Shown here one piece after another: positions 6,266-17,292 of a stretch of 64,000 nucleotides of DNA. The DNA comes from Tissierellia bacterium (GTDB lineage: Bacteria > Bacillota > Clostridia > Tissierellales > Peptoniphilaceae). Below the pieces are notes generated by a model that was not told where the DNA came from, did no database searches, and worked only from the letters and a program-made list of their open reading frames with translations. Each line of letters begins with the position of its first letter. The stretch's first letter is position 1. Position numbers and translations under genes: made by a program. Where the stretch lies: contig JAUNVD010000007.1 in the NCBI GenBank assembly GCA_030537855.1, positions 1-64,000 on the forward strand, written 5' to 3'.

Positions 6266-6300
6266 CAAAGGACCCGAAGAACGGGTCCTTTGTTATGTTT
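6266..6300. terminator. bidirectional intrinsic terminator
   Basis: Perfect 10-bp stem AAAGGACCCG / CGGGTCCTTT with a five-base loop. It lies between the convergent XRE-cupin gene and the pullulanase end of the glycogen operon and probably serves both. Confidence 0.75.
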
Positions 6301-7975
6301 CAAATATTAATATACTATTATTTTCTATTTTCTCTTCTGAAAAACAAGGAACTTTACTTTCTCCCTCTTCGGAAAATACGCGGTAAACATCTTTTATCCC
6401 ATATTTCTCTGGTTGGAAGATTATGTCTTCATTTCTGCCATTAATAGCTACATACATTGTTTTTTCTCCATAAAGACCATATAATAAAAATCCATCTTTA
6501 TTTTCCAAGACTTTACCTTCTACTTCTTTTCCTCGAAGAAGTTTTTCTTTCCGAAATTTTAGTAAATCTTTAATATATTGGTAGGTTCCATAATGATGCC
6601 ATTTTTCTGACCAATGAAGTGCGTTAACGGAAGCTGGCCCTTGATAGGTATTTTTTAAGCCTCCTTTTCCTTTTTGCCATTCATTTCCTCCAGCCATAAG
6701 GATTGGCCCCCTTGCCAAGGCCAAAAGACTCATTCCTAATTTATATTTCCGACTTAATAGTTCATCATTTCCTAATCCAAACTTTTTTAGTTGATCCCAT
6801 AAAATATAATCATCATGACAGTTCAAGTAGTAAAGATGTTTTTTCGATGGATACAAAAGAGCTTGTAATATTTTATCTCCTTCTTGAAAATCTCCACCTA
6901 AAAAACCTCCAAATCCAAAGTTATTACCACGTACAGCATCTCGAAAGACATCGTCATAGATATAAAACCCAAGATCCTCTTTAGGGCTCCACCTTAAATG
7001 TTCTGGCATAGAGTCAGGTAAGGCTGACCAAGGTTCTCCATACAAAAATATATTTGGATTGATTTTTTCCAATCTCTTTTTTGCTTCGATTAAGAATTCT
7101 CGGTCTAATAATGCCATAAGGTCAAAGCGAAAACCATCTACTTGAAATTCTCGAACCCAATATTCTAAGGTATCTAATAATAATTTTTGGATATGTGGAT
7201 GTTCTGTAGCTAATTCATTTCCCACTCCAGAACCATTGGCAATTTCCCCTTTTTTTGTCTTACGATAATAGTTTCCTTGACTTAGTAAATATAAATTAGA
7301 ATCTTTCGTTCGATAGGTATGATTAAATACAATATCAAAAATTACTCCAATTCCATCTTTGTGTAAACTATCAATCATTTTTTTACATTCACATTTTGTT
7401 TTTTTAGGATTTTCAGGACTCGTTCCATAGCCAGGATGAAGAACCCGAAAATGTTCCGGATCATAGCCCCAATTATAGTTATCTTCTTCCAAATAGGCTA
7501 AAGGATCTCCAGTCATGGTAACAAAATCTGTTGGTGGCAAGAGATGAACCATAGTAATCCCTAAATCCTTTATATGAGATCTTCCTATATTATCTAAGTT
7601 CTCAGAAAACGCAGCAAAGGTTCCTGGGTATTGAAATCCTCCTTCAGGATCTATGGAAAAATCTTTTACATGAACTTCGTAAATCACAAGGTCATCTGAA
7701 GGTTCAAAGATTCTCTTTCTTGGTTCTGATTCTTGGGCATATCGACTTCGAATCCCATACACATCTGTTTCTGTACATTGTGGATCTGTAATTTCATATC
7801 GATCATCTAAGAGAAAGGTATAGTAATCTCCAGGTTTTAATGGATTAGGGGATATGAAAAATCCTTCCTTTTCTTTTTTCATAGGAAATCGAGAATAGGT
7901 ATTTCCTTCACTTCCGTGATATATAAGAAGATCCATAGATGTAATACCAATAGCTGGACAAAATAATTTGTTCAT
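6293..7975 (-). CDS. pulA: pullulanase-type glycogen debranching enzyme (GH13)
   Basis: Hydrolyses alpha-1,6 branches in glycogen-like glucan (560 aa). A short N-terminal carbohydrate-binding-like region precedes the GH13 barrel. The type I pullulanase signature YNWGYDP is present. The four GH13 regions are visible: DIVFNHT, GFRFDLMAL (nucleophile Asp), LYGEPW (acid Glu) and NCHDDYILWD. There is no signal peptide, so it acts on intracellular glycogen. The start at 7975 was chosen because GGAGGG lies just upstream and it overlaps the preceding stop as ATGA; an ATG four codons earlier lacks a binding site. It is the last gene of the glycogen operon. A GlgX-like role is equivalent. Confidence 0.88.
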   Translation of the reverse strand: MNKLFCPAIGITSMDLLIYHGSEGNTYSRFPMKKEKEGFFISPNPLKPGDYYTFLLDDRYEITDPQCTETDVYGIRSRYAQESEPRKRIFEPSDDLVIYEVHVKDFSIDPEGGFQYPGTFAAFSENLDNIGRSHIKDLGITMVHLLPPTDFVTMTGDPLAYLEEDNYNWGYDPEHFRVLHPGYGTSPENPKKTKCECKKMIDSLHKDGIGVIFDIVFNHTYRTKDSNLYLLSQGNYYRKTKKGEIANGSGVGNELATEHPHIQKLLLDTLEYWVREFQVDGFRFDLMALLDREFLIEAKKRLEKINPNIFLYGEPWSALPDSMPEHLRWSPKEDLGFYIYDDVFRDAVRGNNFGFGGFLGGDFQEGDKILQALLYPSKKHLYYLNCHDDYILWDQLKKFGLGNDELLSRKYKLGMSLLALARGPILMAGGNEWQKGKGGLKNTYQGPASVNALHWSEKWHHYGTYQYIKDLLKFRKEKLLRGKEVEGKVLENKDGFLLYGLYGEKTMYVAINGRNEDIIFQPEKYGIKDVYRVFSEEGESKVPCFSEEKIENNSILIFET

Positions 7976-9021
7976 AGTTCCCTCCATGTGCGAACACGTC
8001 GTAATAGACCTGGTTTTAAAAAATCATCTTTAGTTAGCTTCTTATCAATCCCATCTTTTAAGTATTCATAGGTAATGGAATTTATCACTGGTAGGGAAAT
8101 AACCTTTAGTTTTTCCCGTAAAGTTCTGTCTTCATTAATTTCACTTCCTAAATATTCAAATCTTCCAGGTAAGAACAAGGTAATGGCAGGTTCCCATAAA
8201 GCTGAATTTTCTTTTAAAAATTGGTATTCATATGTTAGTTCTCGTAACAATAGATGGTCTGGAACATTTTCTTCTACTAAAAGAAATCTTCCTATATTTG
8301 GAAAACTTCGTCTATAAAAAGAACCTAGTTGGTTTAAAAATTTCTTACGTTTCTCTTTCTTCCCCTTTTTTTTTCGTTCTTTTTCTACCATTTGATATTC
8401 ATAAACTCGAGCATATTTAAATAAAAGTGCATGATGATTTCTCTTTAAGCTAATAAGCTCTCGTTCTCCTTGCCACATTGAATAAAAAACTTCTTCATCC
8501 ACATCTCCAATGATTAATGGAGTATCTAAATGGGTCATTTGTAAAAAAGCTTCCTGATATCTTTCTCTAGGATTTTCTTTTTTCAATTTATGATATTCAT
8601 TTCCCTCTCCAGTTAGGGCAACTTCTTGAGGAAAAAGACCATAGGCAGAGGTCACTTTGGGACTAAAGGCTATAATCCTTCTTTCTCGTCCTAAATATCG
8701 TAAAAAAGTAGATGACTCACTTTCTGATAACTCTTCTTTTCGATACCATAGTAACAATTCTTCTTCAGGTGATAGATTACCATCTACAATTCTTGCCCCT
8801 ACTAAAGGTTCATCTGTTAAGAAATAGTACTCTAATGGTTTGCCGTTTCTACGATGTACTAAATTTTTTCGTAAAGACCAAAGAATGGTTTCTTCCAAGT
8901 CTACCCAAGTACCATTCTCAGGAGATACTCCTCGTAACAAAAGAAGGTCGTTTTCATATTTCTTCAAAAGCTCCCACTGTTTTTCCTTGGAGAATGGATT
9001 GATAAAGTTTTTTGTATTCAT
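7972..9021 (-). CDS. unrecognised protein encoded inside the glycogen operon
   Basis: 349-aa soluble protein that I cannot assign. There is no signal peptide or membrane segment. It is rich in charged residues, with a strongly basic stretch near residues 210-230 (KERKKKGKKEKRKK) that suggests nucleic-acid or polyanion binding or an interdomain linker. Readable stretches include WVDLEETILWSLRKNL, LLLWYRKEELSESE, HLDTPLIIGDVDEEVFYSMW and LWEPAITLFLPGRFEYLG. It starts within the last 68 bases of glgA (GGGAG about 13 bases upstream) and ends with ATGA overlapping pulA, so it is translationally tied to both. I infer a role in glycogen synthesis, degradation or its regulation. The long overlap leaves the start uncertain. 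Confidence 0.75.
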   Translation of the reverse strand: MNTKNFINPFSKEKQWELLKKYENDLLLLRGVSPENGTWVDLEETILWSLRKNLVHRRNGKPLEYYFLTDEPLVGARIVDGNLSPEEELLLWYRKEELSESESSTFLRYLGRERRIIAFSPKVTSAYGLFPQEVALTGEGNEYHKLKKENPRERYQEAFLQMTHLDTPLIIGDVDEEVFYSMWQGERELISLKRNHHALLFKYARVYEYQMVEKERKKKGKKEKRKKFLNQLGSFYRRSFPNIGRFLLVEENVPDHLLLRELTYEYQFLKENSALWEPAITLFLPGRFEYLGSEINEDRTLREKLKVISLPVINSITYEYLKDGIDKKLTKDDFLKPGLLRRVRTWREL

Positions 9022-10408
9022 TTCCCGCGCTCTCCCAGCTATTATCTTGTTCCATACATTGAATTCTTAAGTGATCAAATTCTTTCGTACCATAAATTTC
9101 TAATCCTCTTTTGATTGCAAATAAAAATTCATGAGCATTGATTGGTCCAAAAGAAATTCCACTTCCCATTTTTGTGTATTTATTATAAGGTTTTACCGTA
9201 TCCACCAGTCCTCCTGTTTCTCGAACAATGGGAATGGTTCCATACGCTTGTGCATTCATTTGAGAAAGTCCACAAGGCTCAGATAAGGAAGGCATCAATA
9301 AATAATCTGCTCCTCCATATACTAAATGAGCATCTTCTTCTGAAAAGTAAATCCCAGCAGACATTTTCTTTGGATAATGTCTTTCCATTTCTCGGAACCT
9401 GTCTTCATATTTCTTTTCTCCTGTTCCTAGAACAACTAGTTGTATTTCTTCTTGTAATAGTTCATCTCCAATATGAAGAAGTAAATCCATCCCTTTAGGT
9501 TCTACTAAACGGCTAACCACTGACAATAGTGGTACATCCTTTTGAGGAAGTCCCATTTTCTTTTGTAAGATTTTTTTATTCTTCTTTTTCTTTTCTAAAG
9601 AGTTTTTATCGAAATTAAAAGGAATACTAGGATCTATCTTTGGATTATAAATTTCCATATCTAAACCATTTAAAATCCCTGTAAATTTATTTTGATATTT
9701 CTTTAATAATCCTTCTAATCCTTCTCCATAATAGGAATATTGTAGTTCTTTCGCATAATTTTTACTTACAGTACTCACTTGATCTCCATAGACAATACCA
9801 GCTTTCATAAAGTTAATCCCATCGTAGTATTGAACTCCTTCTTCATGAAAATACTTAGGAGATAAACCGCCAATAAATGTTAAACATTCTCGTGGAAAAA
9901 CCCCTTGATACTTAATATTATGAATGGTAAAGAGTGTTTTAATATCTTTATAATAGGGATCCCCTTTGGCAAAGTCTTTAATATAAAGGGGAATAAACCC
10001 GGTATGCCAGTCATTACAATGTACCAAATCTACTTTTAAGTCCATCTCTTTAATAAATTGAGTCACTGCTTTATTAAAAAAGAAAAACCTTTCTCCATCA
10101 TCTGGCTCCCCATATAATTGTTCTCGATCAAAATACCTTTTAGAGTCTATAAAGTATGTGGTAAGATGTTCTTCCTTTTTTTGAAAGATTCCTGCGTATT
10201 GACGACTAACTCCAATATCTACATAGAAGTATCCGATATAATCTAATTCTTTTCCATATTTTTCTTCAACTTGACGATATAGTGGTAAAACCCTTGCCAT
10301 TTCCACACCTTTTTTTCCTAAGGTAGATGGTAGTGCACCGGAAACATCGGCTAAACCACCAGTTTTTATATATGGAACTGATTCTGATGTGACAAATAAA
10401 ACTTTCAT
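8954..10408 (-). CDS. glgA: glycogen synthase (ADP-glucose), GT5
   Basis: Transfers glucose from ADP-glucose to the non-reducing end of glycogen (484 aa). The N-terminal KTGGLADVSGALP motif binds ADP-glucose. The C-terminal domain has the EPCGLSQMNAQAYG and RETGGLVDTV motifs of GT5 enzymes. Length is normal for bacterial GlgA. The start overlaps the glgD stop by four bases (ATGA), implying translational coupling. Its last 68 bases overlap the next, unrecognised gene. Confidence 0.96.
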   Translation of the reverse strand: MKVLFVTSESVPYIKTGGLADVSGALPSTLGKKGVEMARVLPLYRQVEEKYGKELDYIGYFYVDIGVSRQYAGIFQKKEEHLTTYFIDSKRYFDREQLYGEPDDGERFFFFNKAVTQFIKEMDLKVDLVHCNDWHTGFIPLYIKDFAKGDPYYKDIKTLFTIHNIKYQGVFPRECLTFIGGLSPKYFHEEGVQYYDGINFMKAGIVYGDQVSTVSKNYAKELQYSYYGEGLEGLLKKYQNKFTGILNGLDMEIYNPKIDPSIPFNFDKNSLEKKKKNKKILQKKMGLPQKDVPLLSVVSRLVEPKGMDLLLHIGDELLQEEIQLVVLGTGEKKYEDRFREMERHYPKKMSAGIYFSEEDAHLVYGGADYLLMPSLSEPCGLSQMNAQAYGTIPIVRETGGLVDTVKPYNKYTKMGSGISFGPINAHEFLFAIKRGLEIYGTKEFDHLRIQCMEQDNSWESAGNEYKKLYQSILQGKTVGAFEEI

Positions 10409-11535
10409 CCTTCATCCCCCGTTATAACCATTCCCTTTTCGATAACATAGGGTTGGGCTGCACTGCCTACAATGGTAACTCCATCTTCTATCACAACACC
10501 TTTGTCTACAATGGCGTTAATCACCACAGCATCTTTTCCTATTTCAGATTTTTGCATAATGATAGAGTTTCGAACCAAAGCTCCCTTTTTTATATTAACT
10601 CCTCGAAATAACAATGAATTTTCTACTTCACCATTAATAATACATCCATTTGCAGATAGAATATTTCTTGTATGAGCATCTTCCAAATAAATTGTAGATG
10701 GTTCATCCTTTGTCTTAGTGTAGATTCTAGCACCTTTTTGAAAATGTTTTTCGTAATCTTCATTATCTAGTAAATTCATATTTGCTTGGTAATAGGAACT
10801 TACATTTCTAATATTTTCCATTGTTCCAGAATATTTATAGGAATTTACAAGGAGTTTATTCTTATGGTTGTTAATCATATCCTCAACCGTTGAAGCATCT
10901 CCTTTTTCCAAGGTATCTTCTAATAATTTTATAAATAAATCCTTTTTCATAAAAAACATCCCAAGATACATATTAAACTGGGATTCTGTTCCTAAATTAA
11001 TCCCAAGGTTTAACAATGTTCCATCTTCATTTAAATGTATTTTATCTGTATTTAAATACTCCATCTTTTCATCTTGTAAAGAACAATACAGTAAGGTAAT
11101 GTCAGCATTTGTTTTAAGAAAATAATCAAAGGCTTCATCTAAATCAGGTTTTACCAAAATATTTGGTCGAGCAAAAAAGATGTATTTTTCCCGAGATCTT
11201 TTAAAAAAATGGACTGTGGAATAGTATTCTCCAATTTCTCCAAACTTTAAGGTATAATGGTCACTGGTTACAGGGGGAAATAAAAAGATTCCTTGAAATC
11301 TTCGATTTAAATCCCATGGTTGACCTGTACCAATATGGTCCATCGTAGATCGAATTTTCTTACCTGGGTAAATAGCAATAGAGGTGATTCCGTAATTAGT
11401 CATATTAGATAGTGTAAAATCCATTAAACGATAGCGGCAACCATAGGGAAGCATAGAGACAGATCGAGATTTACATAATCCTCCCATATCTCCTTCTTTA
11501 TAAACTTGACCAATTATTCCAAGTGTACGTTTCAT
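10405..11535 (-). CDS. glgD: GlgD, ADP-glucose pyrophosphorylase regulatory subunit
   Basis: 376-aa homologue of GlgC that in Firmicutes forms a hetero-oligomer with GlgC and raises its activity. The N-terminal nucleotidyltransferase fold is kept (YGCRYRLMDFTLSNM), but the catalytic GGxGxRL loop is degenerate (GIIGQVYKEGDMGGLCKSR), as expected for GlgD. The C-terminal left-handed beta-helix repeats are visible (SLLFRGVNIKKGALVRNSII). It lies directly after glgC with a nine-base gap and is coupled to glgA. Confidence 0.93.
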   Translation of the reverse strand: MKRTLGIIGQVYKEGDMGGLCKSRSVSMLPYGCRYRLMDFTLSNMTNYGITSIAIYPGKKIRSTMDHIGTGQPWDLNRRFQGIFLFPPVTSDHYTLKFGEIGEYYSTVHFFKRSREKYIFFARPNILVKPDLDEAFDYFLKTNADITLLYCSLQDEKMEYLNTDKIHLNEDGTLLNLGINLGTESQFNMYLGMFFMKKDLFIKLLEDTLEKGDASTVEDMINNHKNKLLVNSYKYSGTMENIRNVSSYYQANMNLLDNEDYEKHFQKGARIYTKTKDEPSTIYLEDAHTRNILSANGCIINGEVENSLLFRGVNIKKGALVRNSIIMQKSEIGKDAVVINAIVDKGVVIEDGVTIVGSAAQPYVIEKGMVITGDEG

Positions 11536-11544
11536 CGTTTCCTC

Positions 11545-12681
11545 CTATCCTATTACAATACCATCTGGGGAAAGAAGATATACATGATCATCATCTCCAC
11601 CAATTTTTTCATGTTCTTTAATAACCATATCTTCCATAATTATAGCATTTTCTACAATCGCCCCTTTTCCTACAATGGCGTTTGAGTGAATAACAGAGTT
11701 TTTAATAATTGCATCTTCTTTCACACATACATTTGAAAAAAGTATGGAATGTTCTACCTTTCCACCAATAATACATCCTTCATTGACCATGGAGTTTTTC
11801 ACTTCTCCATTTTCTTGTATTTTATGTGGTGGTAAATTCCTATTATGTGTATAGATTCTCCAGTCTCTATCAAATAAATTTAAAGAATCTTCAGAATCTA
11901 GTAAGTCCAAATTCGATTCCCAATAACTTTTAATCGTTCCCACATCTTTCCAGTACCCTTTAAATTTCCATGCCATCATCGTATTTCCCTCTTCTAGCAT
12001 AAGGGGTAAAATGTCTTTTCCAAAATCATGACTGGAAGCAGGAGATATATCGTCTCGAATTAAGTATTCTCGTAGTACTTCCCAACGAAAAACATAAATC
12101 CCCATAGAGGCCATATTGTTCTTTGGTTTTTCAGGCTTTTCGTCAAATTCAAAAATTTTCATAGAATCATCTACATTCACAATCCCAAATCTGGAAGCTT
12201 CTTCCCAAGGAACTTCAATGACAGAAATCGTACAATCTGCATCATGTTCCATATGGTATTCGATCATCTTTTGATAATTCATCTTGTAAATATGATCTCC
12301 AGAAAGGATTAAAACATGACTAGGATTTACTTCGTCAATATAATCCATATTTTCAAAGATAGCATTGGCAGTTCCTGTAAACCAACGTCCCCCTTCTTCA
12401 GAAGCATAAGGAGATAAGATACGAAGTCCCCCTGAAAAACGGTTTAAATCCCATGGAATTCCAATCCCAATATGTTCATTTAATTTATATGGTTTATACT
12501 GGGTTAAAATGGCAATTTCACGAATTCCTGAATTTGCAACATTAGATAGGGCAAAGTCAATAATACGATATTTCCCACCGAAGGGGACTGCTGGTTTTGC
12601 AGTATCTTTGGTCATTGCTTTTAGCCGACTACCTTGACCACCAGCTAATAACATTGCTAAGACTTTATTTTTCGTTTCCAT
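11545..12681 (-). CDS. glgC: glucose-1-phosphate adenylyltransferase
   Basis: Makes ADP-glucose from glucose-1-phosphate and ATP, the committed step of glycogen synthesis (378 aa). The intact catalytic loop [20 protein letters not shown] is followed by [14 protein letters not shown]. The sugar-phosphate region (GIPWDLNR) and C-terminal beta-helix repeats ([19 protein letters not shown]) are present. It sits 15 bases after glgB in the glycogen operon. Confidence 0.96.
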
Positions 12682-12696
12682 ATATTTTCCTTTCTC

Positions 12697-14505
12697 TTAT
12701 TTCGGTTCCTCTAACAATATTCCCCCATATCCAGGTAGGTCAATAGTAATATATTGATCCCTCCCATGAATGGAAAAATCATTCTTTGTTTTATAATTAC
12801 CCATTCCAGGTCCATGGGTTCGTAAAAGTTCTCGATAGACACCATTTTTTCTAACACCAATGGGATAATTTTTTCTCTCCACAGGGGTAAAATTAAAAGC
12901 GACGACTAATACTTCCTCATTATGTATTCGTTCATAGATTATTATACTTTCTTGATGATTTTCATGTTCCACCCAATGAAAGTTTTCATATCCACAATCT
13001 TTATAAAGCGCAGGATATTTTTGATACAAATGATTTAGGGTTTTCACAAATTCTAAGATTTCCTGATGATAGGGATACTCTAATAATAGCCAATCTAAAC
13101 CCTGCCATTCATTCCATTCAATCCACTGTCCAAACTCTCCTCCCATAAAAAGAAGTTTTTTTCCAGGTTGCGTGTATTGATATAGGAGTAATTGTTTTAG
13201 ACCATAACCTTTATCTTCATAGTTCCCTGGTAATTTATTTATTAAAGACTTTTTACCATGAACCACTTCATCATGGGAAAAGGGTAAAATATAATGTTCG
13301 TTAAATCCATACATTAAAGGAAAGGTCAAATTCTTATGATTATCCTTCCTATAAATAGGATCTAAAGTAATATAACCTAGGGTGTCATGCATCCATCCCA
13401 TATTCCATTTAAAATGAAAGCCAAGGCCACCTTCTTCCACAGGTTTTGTTACATTAGGAAAGGAAGATGAATCCTCAGCGATTAATATAGCTCCTGGTAC
13501 TTCCTTTCGTATCAATTGTGTTAGTTCTTTTATAAATGCCAATCCCACAGGATCGGCCTCCCTTATATTGGATCCTGTAAAAATCCCTTCCCCACTTAAT
13601 AAATAAGCTACTGCATCTATTCTTAATCCATCAAATTGAAATTCCTTTAACCAATAAAGAGCATTAGAATATAGGAAAGACCGAATAGGCCCCCAACCTA
13701 AATTAAAGTTTTTCGTCTGCCAATGAGGATTTTCTCCTTTTTCCCCAGAATATTCATACAATGGATCTCCGTCAAAGTTTGCCAAACCATGGGCATCCTT
13801 TACAAAATGATAGGGTACCCAATCTAAAATTAAACCAATCCCCATATTATGTGCCTTATGAATAAAATATCTTAAATCCTCAGGACTTCCAAAACGTGAA
13901 GTGGGGGAAAAATAACCTGTTTGCTGATATCCCCAGCTTCCATCATAAGGATGTTCTCCTAAAGGCATTAGTTCTATATGGGTAAACCCCATTTCTTTCA
14001 CATATGGCAATAGACTATTTGCTAATTCTCGATAGGTATAATAACGATTGTCTTCATGACGACGCCAAGAAGATAGATTTACTTCATAGATTGTCATAGG
14101 CTGATAATAGTCAAAGGAAGTTATCCTTTCTTTCGTAGGAGGTAAATCCACAATAATCGAAGCAGTGTTTGGGGCTTTTTCAGAAAACCTAGCATAAGGG
14201 TCACTTTTATAAAGCTCTTCTCCTCGACGGGTGATGACCCGATATTTATACCTATCTCCAACCTTTGCTTCGGATAACGAAATCGTCCAAAATTCTTTAT
14301 CTTGTTCACATTTCATCGGATGACTCCATGGATTCCATTCATTGAAATCTCCAACTAAATAAACTTCTCTAGCATTTGGTGCCCAAAGGGTAAATCGAAC
14401 TCCTTGTTCTTTTACAATAGCTCCCATTCTCCGGTAGGCATCGATTTCTTTTCCTTCAAAAAACAAATATTCTTTAAAAGAATCTCCACCTTCATATAAA
14501 ATCAT
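12697..14505 (-). CDS. glgB: 1,4-alpha-glucan branching enzyme
   Basis: Introduces alpha-1,6 branches into glycogen (602 aa). An N-terminal CBM48 domain (about residues 30-115, with FTLWAPNAREVYLVGDFNEW) precedes the GH13 barrel. The GH13 regions are visible: DWVPYHF, GLRIDAVAYLL (nucleophile Asp), EDSSSFP (acid Glu) and SHDEVVHGK. The protein lacks the extra N1 domain of longer GlgB forms. The ATG overlaps the herA stop by four bases and has GGAGG seven bases upstream, so the glycogen genes are coupled directly to the DNA-repair pair before them. Confidence 0.95.
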   Translation of the reverse strand: MILYEGGDSFKEYLFFEGKEIDAYRRMGAIVKEQGVRFTLWAPNAREVYLVGDFNEWNPWSHPMKCEQDKEFWTISLSEAKVGDRYKYRVITRRGEELYKSDPYARFSEKAPNTASIIVDLPPTKERITSFDYYQPMTIYEVNLSSWRRHEDNRYYTYRELANSLLPYVKEMGFTHIELMPLGEHPYDGSWGYQQTGYFSPTSRFGSPEDLRYFIHKAHNMGIGLILDWVPYHFVKDAHGLANFDGDPLYEYSGEKGENPHWQTKNFNLGWGPIRSFLYSNALYWLKEFQFDGLRIDAVAYLLSGEGIFTGSNIREADPVGLAFIKELTQLIRKEVPGAILIAEDSSSFPNVTKPVEEGGLGFHFKWNMGWMHDTLGYITLDPIYRKDNHKNLTFPLMYGFNEHYILPFSHDEVVHGKKSLINKLPGNYEDKGYGLKQLLLYQYTQPGKKLLFMGGEFGQWIEWNEWQGLDWLLLEYPYHQEILEFVKTLNHLYQKYPALYKDCGYENFHWVEHENHQESIIIYERIHNEEVLVVAFNFTPVERKNYPIGVRKNGVYRELLRTHGPGMGNYKTKNDFSIHGRDQYITIDLPGYGGILLEEPK

Positions 14506-16346
14506 ATTGGATCCTCCGGGTCAAAATATACATTCCCAAAGATATTTTCTTTTGCTTCTAATTTTCCTTCTTGGACCAGTTTTTTTAAATAATCTTTTAG
14601 TTCTTCCACACCATAATTAACCTGTGCCTTAGCAGAAAGATCTTGGATAATATACATTAAATCCCCAGCTTCGTTAATAGGAAGATATCCTTTGATATGT
14701 TGGAAAATTTTGTCCATTTTCTCTTCCTCTTTACCCCATAATTCATCAAAGGGATTTTCCTTATGGGGACTTTCTGTAAAGGCTCCACGAATTCGTCCAT
14801 AAATTGTTCGTCCCATTTGAGAAGAAGAAATAAATACATCTCCTGTTCGCAAGTAAGGAAGTCTTTTTGCCTCTTCAGAAGTAATATCTGTTTCTTCCCG
14901 AATAGTATCAATATCTGAAGCACGAACAGTACGAAAGATACATTTTGTATTTAACTGGGCTGTTATAGTTTCATCAAGTAATGTAGGTCTTTGGGTTGCT
15001 AATATTAAAAACACACCATATTTTCTACCTTCTTGAGAAATCTCCTTTAATACATTTTTTGCTGGAGTATCTACTCCCTTAGGAGCAAAATTATGGGCCT
15101 CATCGGTGACTACTACAAATGGAGGAAAATAATCTTTAACTTCCCCTCTATACTTCCCATCTCGATGCTCTCTTCGAAGATGATAAAGATGATTGATAAG
15201 ATAGGTTGAAAATACATTAAGGATTCTAGTGCTCCCTTGGATAACTACAAGTTTACCTCCTTGTAATGACTCTTCCACAGGAAGAACATCTTGGTTAAAG
15301 ATTCCCTCATACTCTAGATTTTGAAGTCTCCAGGAAATTCCTCGTACCGATTGATTATGACATTTTTTGTCATACTTATCATATACTTCTAATCGTCGCT
15401 CCCAAGTTTTTTTCTTATCTCCATCAGAATATTCAATTTCTGCTAAAATAGCTTCCCTTCCATTCATATCTTGAACTTTCAGTAAGTCATCTATTCTTTC
15501 TTTGAAGGAGTATAGATTATTCCCTTTAACGAAAAGAACATCTACCACATTACTCATTGGTTCACTTAATGGTGCCACTGCTCCTAGTAAATTCTTTATA
15601 TCTCCCCTTGTTAAATGCTCAAACTTTACTCCAATATCTTCTCCAATACTTAGAATCCGATAGGTATCTTTAAAATATCCTACCTCACCTTTTTCAGAAG
15701 GATCAGAAAAATCCATTTCATAATGAGGGTCTAAAACTAAAGTAGGCACTTTCTTTTTCATCAGTTCCTCTAAAAAGACTCGAAGACCAAAACTTTTTCC
15801 TGATCCAGATCCTCCAAATACTCCAATATGAGGATATTGATGCATTCCTCGTAAGTTTAAAAAATAGGGAACTTCTCTTTGCTCAACCCATTGTCCCTCT
15901 TCAAAAGTCCAAAGTAAATCTTTTAAATCTTCTTCCATTTCGTCATAAAGTCCATCTGTATTACGGATCACACCAAGTAAAAGTCCCTCTTTTGGATTTC
16001 CTTGTACTAAATGATCTCGAACTTCTTCAAAATGAGGGGGTCTTGCTGAACAACCTGTTAACACAGGAAAGAGTGCTTCGTTAAAGAGCCTTACTTTTGC
16101 TAGGTAAATCGTTTCATCATCCACATCATACCCCATGGCTCGTAAACTTTCCAACACACCAGCATCTACAAAATCTCCACCAACTTCTAAGGGGATAAAT
16201 CGATTATAGGTTCTAGCTTCAACAACTTCCCCTCTTAAATCCCCTTGCACTGGATCTTGTAATATCACATACTCATTAATTCTAAAATTTCGTTCTCTAC
16301 TTCCAAGCATAACTTCCTGTTGGGTTGTAACTCCCACTACTTGCAT
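14502..16346 (-). CDS. herA: HerA-type DNA translocase/helicase
   Basis: Hexameric FtsK/HerA-family ATPase that works with the NurA nuclease in DNA end processing (614 aa). It has an N-terminal HAS-barrel-like beta domain (about residues 1-60), Walker A GGSGSGKS at 178-185 and Walker B with DEAH at 415-418 (VVVTDEAHNF). The segments EGRKYGVFLILATQRP and TQLNTKCIFR follow, where HerA proteins carry sensor and arginine-finger elements. A C-terminal 100-residue extension may form a small accessory domain. It starts five bases after nurA with AGGTGATAGG upstream. The adjacency to nurA strongly supports the call. Confidence 0.9.
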   Translation of the reverse strand: MQVVGVTTQQEVMLGSRERNFRINEYVILQDPVQGDLRGEVVEARTYNRFIPLEVGGDFVDAGVLESLRAMGYDVDDETIYLAKVRLFNEALFPVLTGCSARPPHFEEVRDHLVQGNPKEGLLLGVIRNTDGLYDEMEEDLKDLLWTFEEGQWVEQREVPYFLNLRGMHQYPHIGVFGGSGSGKSFGLRVFLEELMKKKVPTLVLDPHYEMDFSDPSEKGEVGYFKDTYRILSIGEDIGVKFEHLTRGDIKNLLGAVAPLSEPMSNVVDVLFVKGNNLYSFKERIDDLLKVQDMNGREAILAEIEYSDGDKKKTWERRLEVYDKYDKKCHNQSVRGISWRLQNLEYEGIFNQDVLPVEESLQGGKLVVIQGSTRILNVFSTYLINHLYHLRREHRDGKYRGEVKDYFPPFVVVTDEAHNFAPKGVDTPAKNVLKEISQEGRKYGVFLILATQRPTLLDETITAQLNTKCIFRTVRASDIDTIREETDITSEEAKRLPYLRTGDVFISSSQMGRTIYGRIRGAFTESPHKENPFDELWGKEEEKMDKIFQHIKGYLPINEAGDLMYIIQDLSAKAQVNYGVEELKDYLKKLVQEGKLEAKENIFGNVYFDPEDPI

Positions 16347-16350
16347 CCTA

Positions 16351-17292
16351 TCACCTCATCGTTCTTAAATCCCGTTCCGATACAAAAAATCGCATATATA
16401 TCTCTCGATCTAAATATTCTTCTAACATCGCTTCCATATATTTATCAGATATTTTTGCTTGAGCATCTACAATATCCAACCATAAAGGAACCCCACGACC
16501 ATCTACTGGAGTTAAAGAAAAGACTAAATTAGAAAGTTCTTCTAAAGACTCCCCTTGTTCTGCTGGTACATCTAGTCCAATTACTTGAATGGATGTAGAT
16601 GGACGTAAAAAAGCAGATGAAAATCCTTCGTCGTACTTTTGATTCTTATCATCATCAATGAAAAGAACCTTTCCGTAAGGAAGATTTCCAAAAAGGATTT
16701 CCCGATCATAAATACCTTCCACTCGGCTAAGGATATTCGTTTTAATATCCTTAATAACACCTAATAATAAAATTCCTTGATTCAAACAAAGATTACGTAG
16801 TTCTTCCCATTTTATAGAATCATTAATCTTATATCGAATTAATCCACCATCCATCATAAGAATCTTTACCTTATGTTTTTTTACAAAGTCTATTGCCACA
16901 TCTAATTCCACACCAGCCAAAATCCTTCTTCTAGGATCAATAGGAGTTTCTTCGAAAGACTCCTTTATATGTTTATCTAAAAGTGGTGTATAAATTTCTT
17001 CTACATACTCTTCTTTTCCATCTGTACTCTTTGCAAGACCTCGATAAATTTCTACATAATGAGGATGGGCTCCACCTTTCCGATTCACCGAACCATCTAC
17101 ACCAACCACAGGACCCATTTCCTTTAATACATCTGGTTTTAACCGTTCCATCGTGGATAAAGTTCCCCCTCGTTCCGTTAAGAACTGAGTAAATTCCTTT
17201 TCTTTCCATGTTAATGCTTCTTCGTATTTATCTTTTATTAATTGATTCAAGACTTGGAGTTCTTTCCCCATTCGTTTTTCTTCTTGTCTCAT
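16351..17292 (-). CDS. nurA: NurA domain nuclease
   Basis: Predicted 5'-3' nuclease partner of HerA in DNA end resection (313 aa). The NurA fold is indicated by the catalytic-acid motif VVGVDGSVNRKGG (Asp66) and the second acid in ILMMDGGLIRYK. Further family features are the stretch LGVIKDIKTNIL and the C-terminal segment with PLWLDIVDAQAK. It lies immediately upstream of herA and overlaps the rsmI stop by four bases (ATGA). The binding site before the first ATG is weak (GAGAG); a start at residue 8 is possible. Confidence 0.88.
   Translation of the reverse strand: MRQEEKRMGKELQVLNQLIKDKYEEALTWKEKEFTQFLTERGGTLSTMERLKPDVLKEMGPVVGVDGSVNRKGGAHPHYVEIYRGLAKSTDGKEEYVEEIYTPLLDKHIKESFEETPIDPRRRILAGVELDVAIDFVKKHKVKILMMDGGLIRYKINDSIKWEELRNLCLNQGILLLGVIKDIKTNILSRVEGIYDREILFGNLPYGKVLFIDDDKNQKYDEGFSSAFLRPSTSIQVIGLDVPAEQGESLEELSNLVFSLTPVDGRGVPLWLDIVDAQAKISDKYMEAMLEEYLDREIYMRFFVSERDLRTMR

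Follow-up and report, generated by a model that had tools for sequence, protein, structure and literature searches.

The glycogen operon of a Tissierellia bacterium (Clostridia; Tissierellales; Peptoniphilaceae) carries a gene between those for the glycogen synthase (glgA) and a PulA-type debranching enzyme (pulA). Its product, here called X, is probably a miniaturised, catalytically dead descendant of a glycogen phosphorylase (GlgP) that once occupied the same place in the operon, and would now serve PulA as a non-catalytic partner. The parts of this reading differ in strength. Descent from an in-operon glycogen phosphorylase is very likely, and X would then be a pseudoenzyme derived from the family of GT35 phosphorylases. 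The partnership with PulA, which we infer from a gene fusion only, is an evenly balanced proposition. The DNA analysed, called the window, comprises positions 1 to 64,000 of contig JAUNVD010000007.1 (assembly GCA_030537855.1), and the genome to which it belongs is referred to as G000.

The gene between glgA and pulA

X lies in a cluster with the order trmN6-like methyltransferase, rsmI, nurA, herA, glgB, glgC, glgD, glgA, X and pulA (Table 1). Terminator-like hairpins in this region are not more numerous than in shuffled sequence, and the support for the one listed is its position right after the pulA stop codon. The PulA of the window scores 340 bits against the type I pullulanase model TIGR02104, which is under the cut-off of 504.5. 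It is unusually short and is 30-39% identical to the PulA of relatives, as against 57-68% for GlgC. In part of the family, the last catalytic motif of PulA reads HDD in place of HDN. The genes for NurA (PF09376) and a HerA-like ATPase (14502-17292, minus strand) lie directly upstream of glgB and overlap it. HerA adjoins glgB also in loci L033, L035-L038, L042 and L046, and in L104 (genome G039), which is from another family of the order; this stable joining of a DNA-end-processing pair to a glycogen operon is puzzling.

Table 1. Coordinates of X, of features within it and of its neighbours in the window
Feature	Position	Strand	Remarks
Terminator-like hairpin	6266-6292		11 pairs; directly after pulA, closing the cluster
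pulA, PulA-type debranching enzyme	6293-7975	-	Proposed partner of X; ~560 aa, with the GH13 catalytic motifs preserved
X	7972-9021	-	349 aa with ATG start; 331 aa if the start is TTG 8967
Shine-Dalgarno GGAGGG for pulA	7980-7985	-	Inside the end of the X coding region; from sequence
Phosphorylase-aligned segment of X	8035-8304	-	Residues ~240-329; GlgP profile columns ~518-620
Lys-rich run of X	8341-8385	-	Residues ~213-227, EKERKKKGKKEKRKK; from sequence and alignment A3
Alternative TTG start of X	8965-8967	-	In frame, codon 19; read from sequence
glgA, ADP-glucose glycogen synthase	8954-10408	-	NCBIfam equivalog NF001898 above cut-off
glgD	10405-11535	-	TIGR02092 above cut-off
glgC	11545-12681	-	Paralogue match to the glgD model; 57-68% identical to the protein at the GlgC position in relatives
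glgB	12697-14505	-	42-51% identical to the protein at the GlgB position in relatives

The reading frame of X is real and coding-like. Its GC content by codon position is 0.46/0.32/0.22, and its codon score is 0.22 in frame, with -0.07 and -0.12 for the remaining frames. Both codon-position composition and codon usage match those of the neighbouring genes, and the probability of 327 codons without a stop in this frame is about 1e-11. The TGA of X overlaps the pulA ATG at 7975 in an ATGA junction. With the first ATG as start, X overlaps glgA, which ends at 8954, by 68 bases. The first-pass annotation had delimited the gene in this way, and the sequence and the coding statistics bear it out. The 68-base overlap depends on the choice of the first ATG, and the TTG at 8967 is an alternative candidate, with GGGAG (8975-8971) 3 nt upstream. 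A start at this TTG gives an X of 331 aa and a 14-base overlap with glgA, which is closer than 68 bases to the 4-base overlap of the PulA-fused relatives described below. A split or frameshifted pulA caused by a sequencing error was ruled out by the strong Shine-Dalgarno sequence of pulA, the ATGA coupling and the coding statistics of X.

By sequence alone, X is an orphan. It matches no Pfam family at E up to 1 and nothing significant in NCBIfam, PHROGs, PDB sequences or phage records. Searches of 249 genomes of the order also gave nothing significant, and a pattern-limited search of genome contigs gave nothing usable. Neither phmmer nor hmmsearch found X significant against GlgP or the PulA-fused domain, and X is carried by one genome only. 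The NCBIfam match to small_w_EgtBD (E 0.006, far below cut-off) falls on the Lys-rich stretch and was rejected as compositional. Kinship with GlgA, GlgB, GlgC, GlgD, PulA or HerA was rejected as well, with profile scores of 13-17 that are at the level of shuffles. The first-pass annotation had recognised no family in X, and this holds for the protein's own sequence; through its relatives, however, X can be traced to glycogen phosphorylase. A primer-like role, which had also been suggested and would be of the glycogenin type, finds no support, since no Pfam family whatever matches X, the self-glucosylating GT8 domain included. The same is true of a contact between the Lys-rich run and a polyanion: the run is absent from the domain of the fused relatives (alignment A3) and looks like a lineage-specific linker.

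Phosphorylase-like proteins in the slot of relatives

In 32 glycogen loci of relatives from the same family, we surveyed the interval that separates glgA from pulA, here called the slot. A GlgP-like protein or its remains occupies the slot in 18 loci and an N-terminal extension of PulA in three, ten loci have nothing there, and one has no pulA adjoining glgA. The slot GlgP homologues are ~700-800 aa long (697-807 aa) and are recognised by PF00343. An intact GlgP fills the slot in G040, from another family of the order, in the arrangement glgA-GlgP-pulA, and a degenerate one is found in G039. In C. difficile, glgP follows glgA (glgC-D-A-P-amy; PMC11423593). The intact slot GlgP of G040 and the gene order of C. 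difficile indicate that the slot ancestrally held a phosphorylase. The ten relatives with neither slot protein nor extension show that the function of the slot is dispensable. In G036 (L049:5332-8012), the slot gene consists of two overlapping frames of 444 and 576 aa, which points to a pseudogene or to an error of assembly; neighbouring lineages are without a slot gene. Direct searches with X had returned no homologues from other glg operons, an outcome that the synteny survey, together with the profile comparisons given below, reversed. The role in glycogen metabolism that had been proposed for X is supported, as the slot is phosphorylase-derived in much of the family and the domain is fused to PulA in sister lineages.

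Eighteen slot proteins (17 intact ones from this family and that of G039) were aligned with 17 canonical GlgPs. The SGTG of EASGTGNMK is lost in 18/18 slot proteins. The lysine that binds PLP is lost in ten of them and kept in all 17 canonical GlgPs. Only 2/18 keep both the K and the R of KRxHEYKRQ, which the canonical set retains. The slot proteins fall into a single clade (support 1.000), and family searches match those without the catalytic motif (L034, L039, L041, L048, L050, L052-L059, L061-L064 and L104) to PF00343 as phosphorylases. Judged by these motifs, the slot GlgP homologues are catalytically dead; the proteins of G028, G071 and G016, which retain the lysine together with most of the other motifs, are less clear cases. 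G000 itself has a canonical GlgP with all motifs intact on contig C69.

Between two close species (L052 and L061), dN/dS is 0.06 for the slot protein, 0.046 for GlgD and 0.066 for PulA. In this lineage, catalysis was therefore lost without loss of constraint, and the full-length dead slot proteins of the pair tested are under strong purifying selection.

The PulA-fused domain and the ancestry of X

In G063, G002 and G009 (L036, L038 and L046), PulA has an N-terminal extension that starts right at the end of glgA. A tree of GlgA, GlgC and GlgD places G000 as sister to these three genomes (support 1.000), and X ends where the N-terminal domain of the sister group ends and the CBM48-like part of PulA begins. 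The fused domain is ~315 aa long in L046 and L038, which belong to different genera and share 41% identity over it. G063 (L036:5867-7990) keeps only the last ~150 residues, the C-terminal half, which suggests that the retained core lies there.

The fused domain matches no Pfam phosphorylase family. In several genomes of the order, an HMM built from it detects open frames as long as a phosphorylase, and the region matched in the alignment is NDTHP..ELMRILLDEYGL. Comparison with canonical GlgP by hhalign gave E 4e-5, and the two halves of the domain each match GlgP, in the order expected. An AlphaFold2 model computed from three sequences only has a pLDDT of 68 and a pTM of 0.69. When this model was searched against the PDB with Foldseek, 50/50 among the matches listed were phosphorylases of glycogen or maltodextrin, the best with an E of 5e-5 and a probability of 1.00. 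By query length, the overall TM-scores come to only 0.33-0.38; such low values are expected when much of the parent phosphorylase has been deleted. The Foldseek matches rule out a separate family, and as modelled the fused domain is a shrunken phosphorylase.

The part of X that aligns with phosphorylase, residues ~240-325 in the profile match, falls where the C-terminal Rossmann domain begins in GlgP. Here YEYQFLKENSALWEPAITLFLPGRF..EYLGSEINEDRTLREKLKVIS of X is paired with YEYFRLKENANYDLPARTYFFGGKA..VNKDRLIKDKLRIVF of the slot proteins, and the fused domain aligns at the same segment of X in the same register. Against the slot profile, X has an hhalign score of 33.4, compared with a maximum of 24.4 for 200 window-shuffled versions. 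In the more stringent comparison with real proteins, made with an enlarged slot profile, X scores 34.7 and the highest of 119 such decoys 30.0. The C-terminal half of X also comes first against the fused domain (25.6), by a narrow margin over the best of 119 decoys (23.6). When this half is joined to the C-terminal half of the fused domain, the GlgP score rises from 32.4 to 49.1, with a maximum of 37.5 for 80 decoys, and the combined profile matches GlgP with an hhalign E of 2.2e-6 and a probability of 89%. AlphaFold2 modelled X poorly (pLDDT 37). In the Foldseek search with this model, phosphorylases make up 49/50 of the matches listed, with ~100 residues aligned; given the pLDDT and an input alignment that contained the fused domains, this list is suggestive and supportive only.

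It is quite improbable that X is an unrelated, lineage-specific protein whose similarity to GlgP arose by chance. This explanation would account for the failure of every single-sequence search to detect GlgP, and for the N-terminal half of X (residues 19-220), which resembles nothing in profile comparisons with GlgP and the fused domain. It has to contend with the first rank of X, in two separate tests with profiles, over shuffled sequences as well as 119 real proteins, with alignment registers that agree with each other, and with a slot position and a sister-group placement that predict a relationship to GlgP.

The profile tests derive X from a GT-B enzyme, which favours the idea that it retains phosphorylase or another glycosyltransferase activity, but the likelihood of this is practically negligible. 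X is less than half as long as the enzyme. In the profile alignment to GlgP, which ends before the EASGTGNMK segment with the PLP lysine, neither that segment nor KRxHEYKRQ has a counterpart in X. Of the GT-B architecture with its two Rossmann domains (~800 aa), only the start of the second domain can be recognised.

A further explanation is that X is a functionless, decaying remnant of the in-operon GlgP, kept open by chance or through translational coupling to pulA. X is extremely divergent, the slot has been lost in ten relatives and is broken into two frames in G036, and the coupling of glgA to pulA alone could preserve an open frame. Against this stand the 349 stop-free codons of X with their normal codon usage, the in-frame fusion to PulA of an equivalent domain that is conserved between genera of the sister group, and the strong purifying selection on the full-length dead slot proteins in the pair tested. 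We consider simple decay distinctly unlikely.

A possible role beside PulA

The preferred reading of X as a dead phosphorylase that partners PulA can be laid out as a series of steps. The GlgP encoded between glgA and pulA would have lost its catalytic motif across the family, with an intact GlgP kept elsewhere in the genome. In the lineage of the window and its sister group, the dead protein would have shrunk to ~150-350 residues and held on chiefly to the beginning of the C-terminal Rossmann domain. It would then have become the N-terminal domain of PulA in the sister group, and in the window it would persist as X, a separate, translationally coupled protein that is not yet fused. X may bind PulA as a non-catalytic subunit, where it might hold alpha-1,4 glucan chains during branch cleavage, or do no more than stabilise PulA. 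Phosphorylase leaves short branches behind, on which debranching enzymes act (PMC11046441), and X might let the debrancher work on glycogen or on phosphorylase-limit dextrin. That a phosphorylase became a glucan-holding subunit of a debrancher, from a full-length dead protein under selection through the miniature X to the PulA-fused domain, is put forward tentatively, as a possibility that falls somewhat short of probable.

The main argument for PulA rather than GlgA as the partner is the fusion in the sister group. X could instead be a glycogen-bound scaffold or regulator of synthesis that acts on GlgA or on GlgC/GlgD and not in debranching. X is equally close to glgA, and GlgD, a regulatory and degenerate paralogue of GlgC in Firmicutes, demonstrates that non-catalytic subunits of synthesis enzymes exist in the operon of X. 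The only fusion observed, however, is to PulA (three genomes) and none is to GlgA, and we regard a role in synthesis as unlikely, though deserving some weight. The suggestion in the first-pass annotation of an undescribed regulator or structural component may live on in the form of a non-catalytic subunit.

X shares with GT35 phosphorylases (PF00343; GlgP and MalP) the genomic slot and the profile alignment of its C-terminal half, and the fused domain of the sister group shares their fold. It differs from them in that it is less than half as long, has neither the PLP lysine motif nor KRxHEYKRQ, matches no Pfam family and has an unrecognisable N-terminal half. The dead slot GlgPs have in common with X the slot and the loss of catalytic motifs and are its best profile match, but they are full length and recognised by PF00343, whereas X is reduced to 331-349 aa. 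The PulA extension of G002, G009 and G063 lies in the same slot of a sister lineage, has the same boundary and aligns consistently with the C-terminal half of X. It is fused, lacks the Lys-rich run and is ~21-26% identical to X (alignment A3). Like X, GlgD is the degenerate paralogue of an enzyme and has been retained in the glycogen operon; unlike X, it has the length of its parent, ADP-glucose pyrophosphorylase. In plants, the debranching enzyme ISA1 has a non-catalytic associate, ISA2, which alters glucan structure (PMC12510319). By analogy only, X as proposed here would play the same part, that of a non-catalytic subunit in an alpha-1,6 debranching enzyme, with the difference that ISA2 is a dead debranching enzyme (GH13) and X would be a dead phosphorylase. 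A limited search of the open-licence literature found no published description of a bacterial pseudo-phosphorylase (pseudo-GlgP).

If this reading is true, bacterial glycogen metabolism would include a pseudoenzyme-based debranching complex analogous to plant ISA1/ISA2, and an orphan gene left blank by sequence searches would have an explanation. There would also be a wider set of PF00343 'phosphorylases' that are without the catalytic motif and yet conserved in glycogen operons. Glycogen breakdown would then have to be read differently from such genomes, as the 'glgP' of the operon would not be a working phosphorylase. The family would offer a testable case of an enzyme that first joined its pathway neighbour as a subunit and was later fused to it as a domain.
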